NCBI GenBank assembly: GCA_003223325.1
Contig: QHYS01000241.1
Location: 1-33,551, forward strand
Source of the DNA: Acidobacteriota bacterium
Lineage (GTDB): Bacteria; Acidobacteriota; Terriglobia; Acidiferrales; UBA7541
DNA: 33,551 nucleotides
Reading direction: 5' to 3'
The notes beneath the pieces are model-generated. The model saw only the letters and a list, made by a program, of their open reading frames with translations, had not been told where the DNA came from and searched no databases. Shown piece by piece: positions 8,759-15,751 of the stretch. The first letter of the stretch is position 1. Every line of letters begins with the position of its first letter. The translations under genes were made by a program, and so were the position numbers.

Positions 8759-9913
8759 ATGTTAGGCCTCAGCTTAATCCGGCTGCTCTTTATCACCTTT
8801 CTTTTCGTTATGGGCGCGCTCTTGTTTGCTCATCCAGCGTTGCTGGTTTCCTCGGTAGCCAGAAAGATCCAAGAAAGCTCTGGGCCTGCCCATCCGGGCG
8901 AGGCACAAGCTTCTGGCGGAGTGGACATTTATGCGGCGGACCGTCCCAATCAACTGAGTCCTACGGTAACGAATTTTCCTTCTCGCGTTTATGTGCCCAA
9001 TTCCGAGAGCGCGAGCGTGGACGTAATCGATCCCGCGACCTACCGGGTGGTCGACCACTTCTCTGTGGGTCGCCTTCCGCAGCACATCGTGCCGTCTTAC
9101 GATCTGAATACCTTGTTTGTGCTCGACGATCAGGGCTACAGCCTTACCAAGATCAATCCCGCCACCGCCAAGCTGGAGGGAACCGTCTCCGTAGATGATC
9201 CCTACAATCTGTACTTCACTCCGGACGGTAGCGAGGCAATCGTCGTAGCCGAGGCTCTGCACCGGCTGGATTTTCGCGATCCGCAAACAATGAAGATGAA
9301 GTTCTCGCTGACAGTGCCCTGCGACGGCGTCAACCACCTGGACTTTTCGGCCGACGGCAGCTACTTCATAGCGAGTTGCGAATTCGACGGGAAATTGCTC
9401 AAGGTGGAAACGTCCTCGCACAAAATTCTTGCCACCATGCGACTCGAGCGGCCCGCCATGCCGCAGGATGTGCGTTTATCGCCGGACGCTAAAGTATTCT
9501 ACGTCGCAGATATGGCTGCCAACGGAGTGCACAAAATTGACGGCGACCAGTTTCAGGTTATCGGATTTTTGCAGACGGGCAAGGGCACGCACGGGCTTCT
9601 TGTGGGCCGTGACTCCAAACTCATGTACATCTCGAATCGTGGAGAGGGAAGCATCTCGGTGATGGACCTTGCCACGCAGAAACTCATCGCCAAGTGGCGC
9701 CTGCCGCATGGCGGCAGTCCCGATATGGGCGGGATCTCGGCGGATGGAGAAGTATTGTGGCTCTCCGGCCGGTACCACGCGGAAGTCTACGCGATCGATA
9801 CCTCCACCGGGAAACTGCTCGCGCGAATTCCCGTGGGCAAGGGACCGCATGGATTGTGCGTCTATCCGCAACCCGGTCGTTACTCTCTCGGCCACACCGG
9901 CCTCTTCCGATAG
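8759..9913 (+). CDS. YncE-like exported or membrane-anchored beta-propeller
   Basis: The 384-residue product begins with a hydrophobic segment (residues about 5-32) that serves as a signal or anchor. A run of YVTN-type propeller blades follows: SRVYVPNSESASVDVIDPAT, NLYFTPDGSEAIVVAE, HLDFSADGSYFIASC, VRLSPDAKVFYVADM, SKLMYISNRGEGSISVMDL and VPVGKGPHGLCVYPQ-like closing elements. Such proteins sit in the periplasm or on the surface and are usually binding proteins or scaffolds without a known reaction. The ATG lacks a visible ribosome-binding site; an in-frame ATG at 8810 would remove most of the hydrophobic segment and is less likely. It converges with the gene at 9953. Confidence 0.85.
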   Translation: MLGLSLIRLLFITFLFVMGALLFAHPALLVSSVARKIQESSGPAHPGEAQASGGVDIYAADRPNQLSPTVTNFPSRVYVPNSESASVDVIDPATYRVVDHFSVGRLPQHIVPSYDLNTLFVLDDQGYSLTKINPATAKLEGTVSVDDPYNLYFTPDGSEAIVVAEALHRLDFRDPQTMKMKFSLTVPCDGVNHLDFSADGSYFIASCEFDGKLLKVETSSHKILATMRLERPAMPQDVRLSPDAKVFYVADMAANGVHKIDGDQFQVIGFLQTGKGTHGLLVGRDSKLMYISNRGEGSISVMDLATQKLIAKWRLPHGGSPDMGGISADGEVLWLSGRYHAEVYAIDTSTGKLLARIPVGKGPHGLCVYPQPGRYSLGHTGLFR

Positions 9914-10895: not shown

Positions 10896-12401
10896 TTACT
10901 GGACTGCTGCGTCGAAAACGGCCGTCTGGATTTCGCCTGCACGCTTGACTTGCACAAAAATGCGGTAAAGGCCGGGCTTGGGAAAACCGTAGGGGATGAA
11001 GATCTCCGGCGCGATTTTATCGGCTGCCATTTTCTTCATGTCCATGGTGCCATGATCCAAGTTGCCGGGCAAGCTGGCCTGAGCAAGTTCAAAGGAAGCC
11101 ATCGGCACAGAACCGGTCGGATGCACGTGCGCAAAGACGGACCCGTCGGAACGAAGGATTGCGGCATGTGCCGCCATGCCCATGTAGGGTTCGAGATCCT
11201 GCGCCGGATTTCCTGAGCGATCCGCTACGCGAAAGCGCAAAATCAGCGGAACGCCGGCCCTGAGAGGCTGGAGCGGCTGCCCGTCGCGCCCCCACATAAT
11301 GATAATGCGACCGCCATCGGGAAGCGGATACTCCGCCGTGGCGCCCGTTTCAGCGGACACGGGGCTCCCGTCGGTTCCGCTGTCATCCCCGGCGAGCGGC
11401 TGCCCCGTTATGCCGGAAGGGAGATCGATTTGCCCGATCATGGTGACGGGAAAACCGCTGCTCAAAACCACATCCGCAAAGATCTGATAGTGGCCAGCCG
11501 GCATAGCGGGAAGATTCTGAGTGAAGCTGCCGGAGCCGGTGCGCTCCGGATGCAAATGCCAGAAGACGTCCATGCCGGGACTGCGAACGAAGAAAAGATG
11601 CATCAAGTGCTCGTGATCGAGGATGAGATCGTTGAAATCGATCCAATGCTCAGGACGGCGAGGATTCCCCGAGGTCATTCGTATCGGCCTTGCTCGCAGG
11701 TTTAATTGTCCATTGGCTCCGACATTGCCTTCGATTTCGGGAGGAGTATAGATGTGGCTGGCGTATTGACGCGCGTCTGATCGCCACCATAGGCCGCCAA
11801 GGGTGAGAACCGCCGCCACTACAAAACTCGCGATCGCCGCCGCTAACCGGACTCTTTGCTCGCGCGCGGTGGGGAGAAGTGCGCCGGGCGGCAGGTTCCC
11901 CTCGCGAACCGCGGCCACGACAATCGCCACCATGGTCAGCGAAAGTACGATCATGAAAACGAAGAGGACCGCGCCTAGAGACCGCTGCATCGGCAACATG
12001 CGCTGCGCGACCGCCGAAATCGGCACGGCCAGCAGCCCTTTGCCATTGGCGCCGTCGGCCTCGATGCGTACTTGAAGCGAGCCGAACTCCATCAGCCAGA
12101 GACTGCCGCGGAAAAACTGCGGGTCGTTTTTGGAACGCTCGGCGGGCTCCAGAGCGGGCGAGTACTGAGAGCCGGGACCTGTGAGCTGCATCGGCGCGAT
12201 GCGGATTTCGGTTAGATTATCTGACTCGCTGCGGATTTCGATCGCCGCAATGCCGGGAATCACCTGCGGCACGCGCACCGTCACGAATAATCTGTACGGC
12301 CCGGCATTCCCTTCGAGGAAAACATCAGGGCTGCCAACGTGCGCCCAGACGGGCAAGGCCCACGCAGCGAGCACCAGAAAAATTACGAAGAAGTATTTCA
12401 T
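10896..12401 (-). CDS. Membrane-anchored protein with two HLHP/HVHP-type domains, unknown function
   Basis: I do not recognise a named family. ATG 12401 lies five bases after the stop of the upstream gene, so translation is probably coupled; an ATG at 12431 would overlap that gene. The 501-residue product has a signal peptide (MKYFFVIFLVLAAWALPVWA), an exported domain, and two membrane segments at about 141-164 and 185-205. Two similar exported domains follow: one with LDHEHLMHLFFVRSPGMDVF and WHLHPE (about 262-286), the other with AAHAAILRSDGSVFAHVHP. Clustered His and Met residues suggest metal binding, possibly copper; this is inference only. Its partner is the polytopic membrane protein upstream. 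Confidence 0.8.
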   Translation of the reverse strand: MKYFFVIFLVLAAWALPVWAHVGSPDVFLEGNAGPYRLFVTVRVPQVIPGIAAIEIRSESDNLTEIRIAPMQLTGPGSQYSPALEPAERSKNDPQFFRGSLWLMEFGSLQVRIEADGANGKGLLAVPISAVAQRMLPMQRSLGAVLFVFMIVLSLTMVAIVVAAVREGNLPPGALLPTAREQRVRLAAAIASFVVAAVLTLGGLWWRSDARQYASHIYTPPEIEGNVGANGQLNLRARPIRMTSGNPRRPEHWIDFNDLILDHEHLMHLFFVRSPGMDVFWHLHPERTGSGSFTQNLPAMPAGHYQIFADVVLSSGFPVTMIGQIDLPSGITGQPLAGDDSGTDGSPVSAETGATAEYPLPDGGRIIIMWGRDGQPLQPLRAGVPLILRFRVADRSGNPAQDLEPYMGMAAHAAILRSDGSVFAHVHPTGSVPMASFELAQASLPGNLDHGTMDMKKMAADKIAPEIFIPYGFPKPGLYRIFVQVKRAGEIQTAVFDAAVQ

Positions 12402-12406
12402 CGCAC

Positions 12407-13660
12407 TCAGCGGCGGATCGCGCGGACCCACTCTCCCGCCGCAGTGCCGAGCCGGCTGCTCAAGATCGCCAGAAGCACGGCTTCCGCCATGATCATCCAG
12501 AATCCGAACGCTGCGTAGTCAATGGGCACGAACAGGTGCCGCACGTCGAATCCATTGGGCGAAGCGAAATAAGCGAAGTACTTCGTGCCGAAAAACCAGT
12601 TCGAGGAAGCCGGCGAAACGAGAAAAGTCGCGAACGGCCATTGCGCGGCAAGGAAAGCGGCCAGGAAAATCACTCCAAACGCCGCAGCCTTCGACCATTT
12701 TCTCCATCCGGCGGTGCGCGGCTCGAGAGCGTCAAGCAGCAAAGCGGGCGCGATCACCAGCAGCGGAAACTCCATGGGAACCATATGCGTTACGCGCTGG
12801 TAGACGGGCCCTAGTTTCGGCGTCGCCGGGAATAAAGGAAAGATCCACAGCATGACCATGGCATAGGCGGTGTAAACGCCGGCCACAATTGTGCGCGCCC
12901 AGCGATGCTCGGAAATTCTGGCGAAGCTGGCGAAAACGACTGGCACTACAATCGCCACCGCCCGGTAGCATTGCGCCGTGTGCATCAGCACGCGATAAGT
13001 CGATTCCCAAACGACGGTGAGCGCCAGCATCGTGATCATGCCGCCGAGCATAAGCAATAGCCAGTCCAATTTCCGCCGCAAGACGCCGCTCGACCGATTC
13101 CGCGCGCTAGCGATCAGAACAAGCGCGCCGATCTGGATGGCCAGAACTCCACCGTCGAGCACCACGTGGGGCGGGCTAAAAATCTTCACGTCCAGGCCGT
13201 AGGCGTTGTGCCACCAATTATCGAACGGCGCCGAAGTAAGCATCGTCGCGCCGCCCCAGGCGGCGATGAACGCCCCCAGCGGGCCGCGAAATCCCAACAC
13301 GCTCACGCTCGCCGCAGCCAACGCCGGGTCGCGCCCCAATGTACAGGAGAGAATCAGGTAGCCGCAGGTGAACCCCGCTAAGATTCCGCAGAATTGAATG
13401 GCCATGTGCGCGGGCGTCCAAAACGAGTCCCGGCCGATGGACATGTGCCAGGAAATATCCCAATAGCCGCCAATCACCACGGAAACGACCGCGGCGAAAA
13501 GGGACCATACATACCAGGGGACACCCGTCAATGCCGCGGGTGTTTGCGGCAGAATCTTCGAGGGAGTCTGGGCGACCGATTCGAGGGTCGAAGCCACTTG
13601 AAAACCCAAATCGAAAGTAGCACAGCGCGGCCCAAAAATCGAAATTCCCGGGGGAAGCAT
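12407..13660 (-). CDS. Polytopic membrane protein with conserved-looking His/Trp/Asp motifs, unknown function
   Basis: The 417-residue product has about ten predicted membrane segments. Two motifs stand out near their ends: YWDISWHMSIGRDSFWTPAH (residues about 66-85) and FDNWWHNAYGLDVKIFSPPH (about 147-166). Both combine His, Asp, Trp and a closing P-x-H or PPH, which looks like an intramembrane metal or haem site, but I cannot match it to a known oxidase or transporter. The start has no clear ribosome-binding site, and the first 45 residues may be partly untranslated. The next gene starts five bases after the stop, so the two form an operon. It diverges from the damaged pyruvate dehydrogenase locus. 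Confidence 0.8.
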   Translation of the reverse strand: MLPPGISIFGPRCATFDLGFQVASTLESVAQTPSKILPQTPAALTGVPWYVWSLFAAVVSVVIGGYWDISWHMSIGRDSFWTPAHMAIQFCGILAGFTCGYLILSCTLGRDPALAAASVSVLGFRGPLGAFIAAWGGATMLTSAPFDNWWHNAYGLDVKIFSPPHVVLDGGVLAIQIGALVLIASARNRSSGVLRRKLDWLLLMLGGMITMLALTVVWESTYRVLMHTAQCYRAVAIVVPVVFASFARISEHRWARTIVAGVYTAYAMVMLWIFPLFPATPKLGPVYQRVTHMVPMEFPLLVIAPALLLDALEPRTAGWRKWSKAAAFGVIFLAAFLAAQWPFATFLVSPASSNWFFGTKYFAYFASPNGFDVRHLFVPIDYAAFGFWMIMAEAVLLAILSSRLGTAAGEWVRAIRR

Positions 13661-13728: not shown

Positions 13729-15297
13729 ATGAGCATGCCGCAGGCCCACAGTTCTCCGCAAGTGGAAGACGTCGAATTGCGGGAATGGCTGGACTCGCTG
13801 GATTTCGTGCTCCAGGAGCGCGGCCGCGAACGCGCGGAGCAGATTCTCCGTCGTCTCCTCCAGCACGCGGCCGAAGCCGGAGTCACGCTACCCTTCACGG
13901 CCAACACGCCTTACGTCAATACGATTCCCGCCAGTGAACAGCCGCCGTATCCCGGAAATCAGGAGATCGAAAGGCGCATCAAGAGCTTCGCTCGATGGAA
14001 TGCACTGGCCATGGTTGTGCGGGCCAATCGCTTGGAGAGGGGAATCGGCGGCCATATCTCCACTTACGGATCGGCGGCAACGCTTTCTTTCGCGCGCGCG
14101 GCGAAAATAGCGAAGGCGATATCATCTATTTTCAAGGGCACGCTTCCCCCGGAATCTACGCGCGAGCCTTCCTGGAAGGCCGCCTCTCCGTGGATCAGCT
14201 CGAAAATTTCCGCCGCGAATTGAAACCCGGCGGCCTTTCCTCCTATCCGCACCCCTGGCTCATGCGCGATTTTTGGGACTTCCCGACGGTCTCGATGGGA
14301 CTGGGGCCCATCATGGCCATCTACCAGGCGCGGTTTAATCGTTATCTCGAAGATCGCGGATTGAAGGAGCGTTCGGATTCCAAAGTATGGGCCTTTATCG
14401 GCGATGGCGAGACCGACGAAGCTGAATCTCTCGGCGCCATCACTCTGGCCTCGCGCGAGCAACTCGACAACTTGATCTTCGTCATCAACTGCAATCTGCA
14501 AAGACTCGATGGGCCGGTGCGAGGCAACGGCAAGATTGTTCAGGAGCTGGAAGCGATTTTTCGCGGCGGAGGATGGAACGTCATCAAAGTTCTGTGGGGC
14601 AGCGATTGGGATTCCCTGCTCGAAAAAGACTCCGATGGGCTTCTCGTGCAGCGCATGGGCGAGGTCGTGGACGGCCAATACCAGAAGAATAGCGCTGAAT
14701 CCGGCGCATATTTCCGCGAGCATTTTTTTTGGTGTCGACCGGCGTCTTCTGGAAATGGTGAAGCACCTCTCCGACGAGCAACTCCATAAGATGAGGCTCG
14801 GAGGCCACGATCCGAAGAAGGTTTATAAGCGGCGCGATTCTTCGCGAGGCGCTGAATGCACAGAAAATGCTGGCGGAGAACTACGCCATCGCGGCGGATG
14901 TCTGGAGCGCAGCTACAAGCAGCTTTATCAGGACGGCCACGCCTGCGACCGCTGGAATATGCTCCATCCATCCGAAGAGCCCCACACTCCTTACGTAACC
15001 CACTGTTTCCGAGGCGCTCCGGGCGCGCTGGTTGCCGCATCCGATTATGTGCGGGCTTTGCCCGATTCGATCTCTCGCTGGATGCCTCGTCCCTTGGTCG
15101 CGTTGGGAACCGACGGTTTTGGACGCAGCGACACTCGGGCCGCCCTGCGAGATTTTTTTGAGGTGGACGCGCGCTTCATCACGCTGGCCACCTTGAATGA
15201 ACTCGCCCGGCAAAAGGCTATCAAACCATCGGTCGTGCAAAAAGCCATCCAGCAGATGGAGATTAATCCGGCCAAAGTTAATCAGATGATTTCTTAG
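13729..15297 (+). pseudogene. aceE: Pyruvate dehydrogenase E1 (AceE-type), deleted and frameshifted
   Basis: A good start (GGAG seven bases before ATG) leads into an AceE N-terminus with [20 protein letters not shown]. Near 14083 a short deletion shifts the frame, and the sequence resumes with [33 protein letters not shown] and the thiamine-diphosphate motif [10 protein letters not shown], then [15 protein letters not shown]8 run at 14723-14730, where T7 would keep REHFFGVDRR in frame, causes a second shift. After GGHDPKKVY at about 14827 the sequence jumps to GAILREALNAQKMLAENYA, which belongs near the C-terminus, so a few hundred codons are missing. Another small shift follows near 14910, and SYKQLYQDG, TDGFGRSD and FFEVDARFITLATL reach a normal end. 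The intact family (about 890 residues) decarboxylates pyruvate; this copy cannot. Confidence 0.92.
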
Positions 15298-15325
15298 AGC
15301 GACGATCTCGCAGGGGACGCCAGCC

Positions 15326-15751
15326 GTGACCACTACCATCAAACTGCCCGAGCTCGGCGAGAACGTGGATTCGGGCGAGCCGACCAGAATCCTCGTCTCC
15401 GCCGGCGATACGATTCCTAAGGACCAGTCGCTCCTGGAACTCGAAACCGAGAAAGCCACCATCGAAGTTCCATCCCCGATTTCCGGTGTCATCTTCACGA
15501 TTACGAATTTGGGCGGCATTGGCGGAGCAGGATTTTCGCCCATCGTAAACTATCCCGAAGTGGCGATTTTGGGCATTTCGCGCGTCAGTACGGAACCGCG
15601 CCAGGTCGACGGAACGTTTCAACCACGCAAAATCCTTCCCCTTTCTCTCTCCTACGATCATCGGTTGATCGATGGCGCCGACGCGGCGCGATTTCTGCGT
15701 TGGGTTGCAGAAGCGCTGGAAGAGCCCGCCTTGTTGCTCTTCAGAACATAA
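15326..15751 (+). pseudogene. aceF: Pyruvate dehydrogenase E2 remnant: lipoyl domain joined to the catalytic C-terminus
   Basis: GTG 15326 with AGGGGA upstream opens a 141-residue frame. Residues 1-55 are a lipoyl domain with the acceptor Lys43 in [10 protein letters not shown]. At about residue 56 the sequence passes directly to [40 protein letters not shown] and the normal end of the acyltransferase domain, with the active-site His112 and Asp116. The rest of the lipoyl domain, the peripheral-subunit-binding domain and most of the catalytic domain are missing. The family is usually over 400 residues. The joint is in frame, so a short protein could be made, but it should not fold as an acyltransferase. 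It lies 28 bases after the broken E1 gene. Confidence 0.88.

Follow-up and report, generated by a model that had tools for sequence, protein, structure and literature searches.

A P1-P2 gene pair of Acidobacteriota with an apparent, very distant and rearranged relationship to the methane- and ammonia-oxidising copper enzymes

The gene pair and its distribution

Two adjacent genes for membrane proteins with histidine-rich motifs in a 33,551-nucleotide stretch of DNA from an Acidobacteriota bacterium (the window) raise the question of what kind of system they encode. Direct searches of both sequences, P1 and P2, against Pfam, NCBIfam and the PDB returned nothing usable, and Foldseek against viral models was uninformative. 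An earlier note, made from the DNA sequence alone, could match neither protein to a known system; it is correct that neither passes a family cut-off, but P1 proves to be a remote homologue of the particulate methane and ammonia monooxygenases (pMMO/AMO), and the pair seems to be related to these enzymes very distantly and in rearranged form. The copper membrane monooxygenases (CuMMOs), to which they belong, catalyse the initial step when methane or ammonia is oxidised aerobically.

The two open reading frames occupy positions 10896-13660 on the minus strand, where the earlier note had placed them, and all P1 and P2 coordinates given below refer to that strand. P1 (12407..13660; 417 amino acids, ten predicted helices) is read here as a fused PmoC-like and PmoA-like membrane protein, and P2 (10896..12401; 501 amino acids) as an exported, membrane-anchored beta-domain protein with a PmoB-like layout. 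Five bases separate the TGA stop codon of P1 (12409-12407) from the ATG of P2 at 12401, the spacing reported previously; an alternative GTG start of P2 at 12431 was set aside in favour of this ATG. The start codon of P1 is uncertain because residues 1 to about 40 are predicted to be disordered. Comparison with the two closest relatives gave dN/dS values of 0.09-0.20 for both genes, which are therefore under purifying selection.

Of 297 genomes sampled from the phylum, 16 contain P1, and these represent 9 of 167 genera; every full-length P1 of this sample is adjoined by P2 in constant gene order. Among GTDB species genomes at least 551 relatives were detected, of which the best 80 were used: these are for the most part from Acidobacteriota, and a few, perhaps misbinned, come from bins with the names Binataceae, Myxococcales, Acidimicrobiia and Nevskia. 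P2 lies directly downstream of P1 in 72 of these 80 loci, and the gap has a median of 3 bases among 65 orthologous pairs (60 or fewer in 62 of them). A fixed stoichiometry, which had been deduced from the gene spacing, does not follow from it, and eight of the 80 P1 loci have no P2 downstream. The eight solo copies (L057, L078, L088, L108, L111, L113, L118 and L132) keep all metal motifs of P1; five of them group with a single paired copy in a supported clade, and the eight together do not form a single clade. Cultured acidobacteria that carry the P1-P2 lineage include Acidipila rosea DSM 103428 and strains of Granulicella.

No conserved third gene was found in the neighbourhoods of the P1 loci, nor was any metabolic gene or catabolic pathway generally linked to the pair when the neighbourhoods were compared. 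In seven loci (L059, L067, L070, L071, L114, L123 and L127; family assigned for two) a short-chain dehydrogenase gene comes right after P2 at a distance of -3 to 13 bases; such a neighbour would be consistent with an alcohol as product, but it is not general among the loci. Own-genome searches for canonical CuMMO subunits found none, those for subunits A and B having been run without a positive control.

The PmoC-like and PmoA-like parts of P1

Residues 46-190 of P1 (13091..13525) form a four-helix part resembling subunit C (XmoC), as recognised by hhalign and by an XmoC HMM. When each orthologue of P1 was scanned against Pfam, the family matched by most was AmoC (PF04896), with 17 of 79 orthologues and a best E-value of 0.0023, and the member with that best E-value scored 17.8 bits against a cut-off of 26.7. 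Against an XmoC profile built from plasmid and viral-contig subunit C sequences, profile-profile comparisons of P1 gave E-values of 2e-4 to 2e-5 (2.3e-5 for the N-terminal half), matching about 110 columns with roughly 23% identity over the aligned part. The score was 40.8 for the whole of P1 (column-shuffled profiles, 16.2+-3.0, maximum 26.1) and 39.6 for its N-terminal half (shuffled, 14.2+-2.4, maximum 19.5), while a reversed-profile control scored 16.3. The XmoC HMM detected 56 of 90 P1 proteins at E<0.01, the best other open reading frame of the same loci having an E-value of 0.49. The sequence DASWHQTVLRDTSFTPSH...YNEWGHAFWSSEEIFALPLH of a genuine AmoC, found in an acidobacterial bin, has DISWHMSIGRDSFWTPAH...FDNWWHNAYGLDVKIFSPPH as its counterpart in P1. 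The remote homology of P1 to the CuMMOs is well supported.

The genuine AmoC just mentioned (L136, G046:C71) lies on a 3.3 kb contig that is possibly misbinned, and no AmoB was found in the bin. XmoC-type proteins are also encoded by 136 contigs of viral collections; in the flanks of 80 of these (L143-L222) no recognisable XmoA or XmoB was found. Because the viral contigs supplied XmoC and no XmoA or XmoB, the profiles of these two subunits are thin, comprising five and seven sequences respectively.

Two metal motifs lie in the PmoC-like part, and in the AlphaFold2 model each of them bridges two consecutive helices, from the last residues of the first into the beginning of the second. The first, D68-x3-H72-x4-R77-x7-H85 (13406..13459), is of the CuC type: in pMMO the CuC ligands are Asp156, His160 and His173, with Arg165 nearby (PMC12576850), and D68, H72, H85 and R77 of P1 reproduce this spacing. 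The second, D147-x3-H151-x13-H165 (13166..13222), is of the CuD type, the pMMO ligands being Asn227, His231 and His245 (PMC12576850); both histidines of P1 are at the pMMO spacing, and the asparagine is replaced by aspartate in 79 of 79 orthologues. The CuD ligands Asn-x3-His-x13-His have been reported not to be required in CuMMOs (PMC9038741). Ten residues (D68, H72, R77, D78, H85, D147, H151, D157, H165 and H227) are invariant among the 79 orthologues of P1, and the pocket residues Arg77 and Asp78 and the Thr-Pro of XmoC are also kept. Both motifs, 60-100 residues apart, occur in 79 of 79 P1 proteins and 56 of 56 XmoC proteins, and in none of 568 other open reading frames of the same loci.

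Residues 191-417 (12410..13090) form the six-helix remainder of P1, which resembles subunit A in its fold by VIA-align and, weakly, in a collinear match of the sequences. Ten long helices, the number given in the earlier note, are seen in the AlphaFold2 model of P1 (pLDDT 89.8). When this model was compared with the PDB by VIA-align, the top 11 entries were all PmoA or AmoA (Z 14.2-15.4), their matching chains being subunit A of particulate methane or ammonia monooxygenase, and the next entry had a Z of 9.7; three of the 11 matches are confined to about residues 190-417, and the others cover nearly the whole model. Helical models may reach a Z of about 13-14 by chance, so the clean separation of these entries and the agreement of the sequence matter. 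Plain Foldseek gave no significant E-values, and unrelated proteins stand among its first rows; only the second look with VIA-align set PmoA and AmoA apart. The match of the C-terminal half to the five-sequence XmoA profile is weak (25.9; shuffled profiles, 14.5+-2.8, maximum 26.8), is in the same register and reaches the C-terminus, and swapped comparisons (N-terminal half with subunit A, C-terminal half with subunit C) stayed at control level. The XmoC profile match of one half and the PmoA-like fold of the other lead to the reading of P1 as a C-A fusion, with four helices in the first part and six in the second.

P1 thus shares with PmoC/AmoC the spacing of the CuC and CuD ligand motifs, the pocket arginine and a significant profile match, but differs in the aspartate at the CuD position, in having only a four-helix C part that falls below the Pfam cut-off, and in running on from this part into the PmoA-like part within one chain. 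With PmoA/AmoA (XmoA, PF02461) it shares the fold of residues 191-417 (Z 14-15) and the weak collinear match; in contrast, its A part is fused behind the C-like part, has no Pfam match, and consists of six helices, whereas PmoA has seven.

Domains and histidine motifs of P2

P2 begins with a signal peptide (residues 1-20) followed by His21, the predicted first mature residue (12339..12401). Ala-His stands at the putative cleavage point, with histidine in 66 of 66 orthologues and alanine in 62 of 66. An N-terminal beta domain (residues 21-139; 11985..12341) precedes two transmembrane helices in the model (140-167 and 178-214, within residues 140-214; 11760..11984), and twin beta domains (residues 219-501; 10899..11747) carry the motifs HEHLMH (residues 263-268; 11598..11615), HLHP (282-285; 11547..11558) and HVHP (425-428; 11118..11129). 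These motifs are present as first described, and the key histidines of both proteins are invariant: in P2, H21, D262, H263, H268, H282, H284, H412, H425 and H427 are unchanged in 66 of 66 orthologues, as are those of P1 in its 79. No match of either protein to a transporter without metal sites was found.

The nearest folds of the first domain by VIA-align, over about 100 residues, are those of the copper-resistance proteins CrdA (Z 9.6) and CopC (Z 8.0), values only slightly above those of unrelated Ig-like folds, and no Pfam family matches this domain. CopC has an N-terminal histidine as a copper ligand; P2 differs from CopC and CrdA in being membrane-anchored, far longer and tied to P1. The Foldseek comparison of P2 was swamped by Ig and FN3 folds, and the chains compared did not include PmoB. 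The twin HxHP module, for which no Pfam family of its own was found, also occurs elsewhere (L033-L040), in proteins that are predicted to be secreted and that carry either HMBD repeats or a cupredoxin domain at the C-terminus; because its kin have such domains, a part in copper handling is the best guess as to the role of P2.

With PmoB/AmoB (XmoB, PF04744), P2 shares a layout of signal peptide, histidine at the predicted mature N-terminus, beta domain, two transmembrane helices and beta domain, and it also has an HxH motif. The N-terminal His33 of PmoB binds CuB (PMC12576850); in P2 both His21 and HxH are invariant, but HxH follows the transmembrane helices and so lies in another domain than the N-terminal histidine, whereas in PmoB it is in the first domain. 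P2 further differs in its twin C-terminal module, and its comparison with the XmoB profile of seven sequences was not significant. By its sequence P2 cannot be recognised as PmoB, which it resembles in layout only. The B subunits of accepted CuMMO lineages share only about 8-10% identity (PMC9038741).

Probable function, alternatives and surroundings

As a remote CuMMO relative, P1 probably works like a CuMMO, and P1-P2 would represent a new, widespread CuMMO-like lineage that is probably a copper oxygenase. That P1 and P2 together make up a CuMMO-like complex is the favoured reading, held with some reserve as to copper, complex formation, reaction and substrate. P1 would then supply, in a single chain, a PmoC-like four-helix part with two adjacent D/H/H sites followed by a PmoA-like six-helix part; P2, exported and held in the membrane so that its beta domains project into the periplasm, would take the place of PmoB, and its N-terminal-histidine domain and twin HxHP module would bring or hold copper beside the P1 core. 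Oxygen may be activated at the CuC/CuD-type site of P1, next to the A-like half, and O2-dependent hydroxylation of a small substrate there would be the most likely chemistry. Counted against a copper monooxygenase are the family cut-offs not reached, the aspartate in place of the CuD asparagine, the lack of a significant sequence match between P2 and XmoB, the Foldseek E-values that are not significant, the chance Z of about 13-14 for helical models, and the absence of a linked metabolic gene. The fuller proposal, a deep and undescribed CuMMO lineage with a fused C-A chain and a differently built copper subunit that oxidises an unsuspected small substrate in soil acidobacteria, is given an even chance.

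The main rival is a copper-handling rather than a catalytic role: a CuMMO-derived protein that is not an oxygenase may serve copper storage, transfer or uptake, with copper held in the sites of P1 and P2 as periplasmic partner. The resemblance of P2 domains to CopC and CrdA and to modules fused to HMBD or cupredoxin domains would suit this explanation, as would the lack of a general link to a catabolic pathway, yet the retention of Arg77, Asp78, the Thr-Pro of XmoC and the PmoA-like half argues for catalysis, and the eight P1 copies without downstream P2 still keep the motifs; such a role is considered rather unlikely. Another metal or chemistry on a related fold, for example a dinuclear iron site made by the two D/H/H motifs that the exchange of asparagine for aspartate renders alike in all 79 orthologues, is improbable, given how closely the CuC motif matches that of XmoC and given the copper-handling domain types of the partner P2. 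Chance or convergent resemblance of an unrelated membrane protein to pMMO in motifs and helix packing, which the low identity and the sub-threshold Pfam scores might suggest, is very improbable and disfavoured, since the sequence profile of the N-terminal half and the fold of the C-terminal half agree as two independent lines, and no such scores were obtained with the shuffled, reversed and background controls.

By the usual criteria P1-P2 falls outside the described CuMMOs, because the cut-off is missed, the C and A parts share one chain, and no B subunit can be recognised. CuMMOs have been defined by three separate subunits encoded by xmoC, xmoA and xmoB (PMC6215863, PMC9038741), whereas the C-like and A-like parts lie here in one gene. 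Mean identities between accepted CuMMO lineages are about 8-21%, depending on the subunit (PMC9038741). The CuMMOs of Ca. Angelarchaeales are likewise a deep soil lineage of comparably low identity to known CuMMOs, but three subunits and all CuB histidines were reported for them (PMC9038741), in contrast to the fused C and A of P1 and a B subunit unrecognisable by sequence. No description of the P1 or P2 family was found in a search limited to the open-access literature exclusive of preprints.

The P1-P2 family is present in hundreds of related loci, yet none of the protein family libraries searched recognises it, and surveys of CuMMOs rely on sequence models and primers that would miss it. 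If the favoured reading is true, the single-chain C-A core would show how a CuMMO complex can be rearranged, and the retention of the CuC and CuD positions beside an unrecognisable B subunit would provide a further way to test which of the metal sites is essential. The lineage would be active in many soil acidobacteria, which are not known methane or ammonia oxidisers, and could bring to light that trace gases or small hydrocarbons are oxidised in soil by a route unseen by present gene surveys.

Two other features of the window were observed around the gene pair. Two genes from P2, a YncE-like beta-propeller protein (8759-9913, plus strand) has weak similarity to models of lactonase-type nitrous-oxide reductase and of hydrazine synthase beta. 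Upstream of P1 and divergent from it (13729-15751, plus strand) are remnants of a pyruvate dehydrogenase E1-E2 operon, with transketolase-type pieces spread over overlapping frames and an E2 remnant of 141 amino acids in which the lipoyl domain is directly joined to the end of the catalytic domain; these look like a decayed locus or assembly errors.
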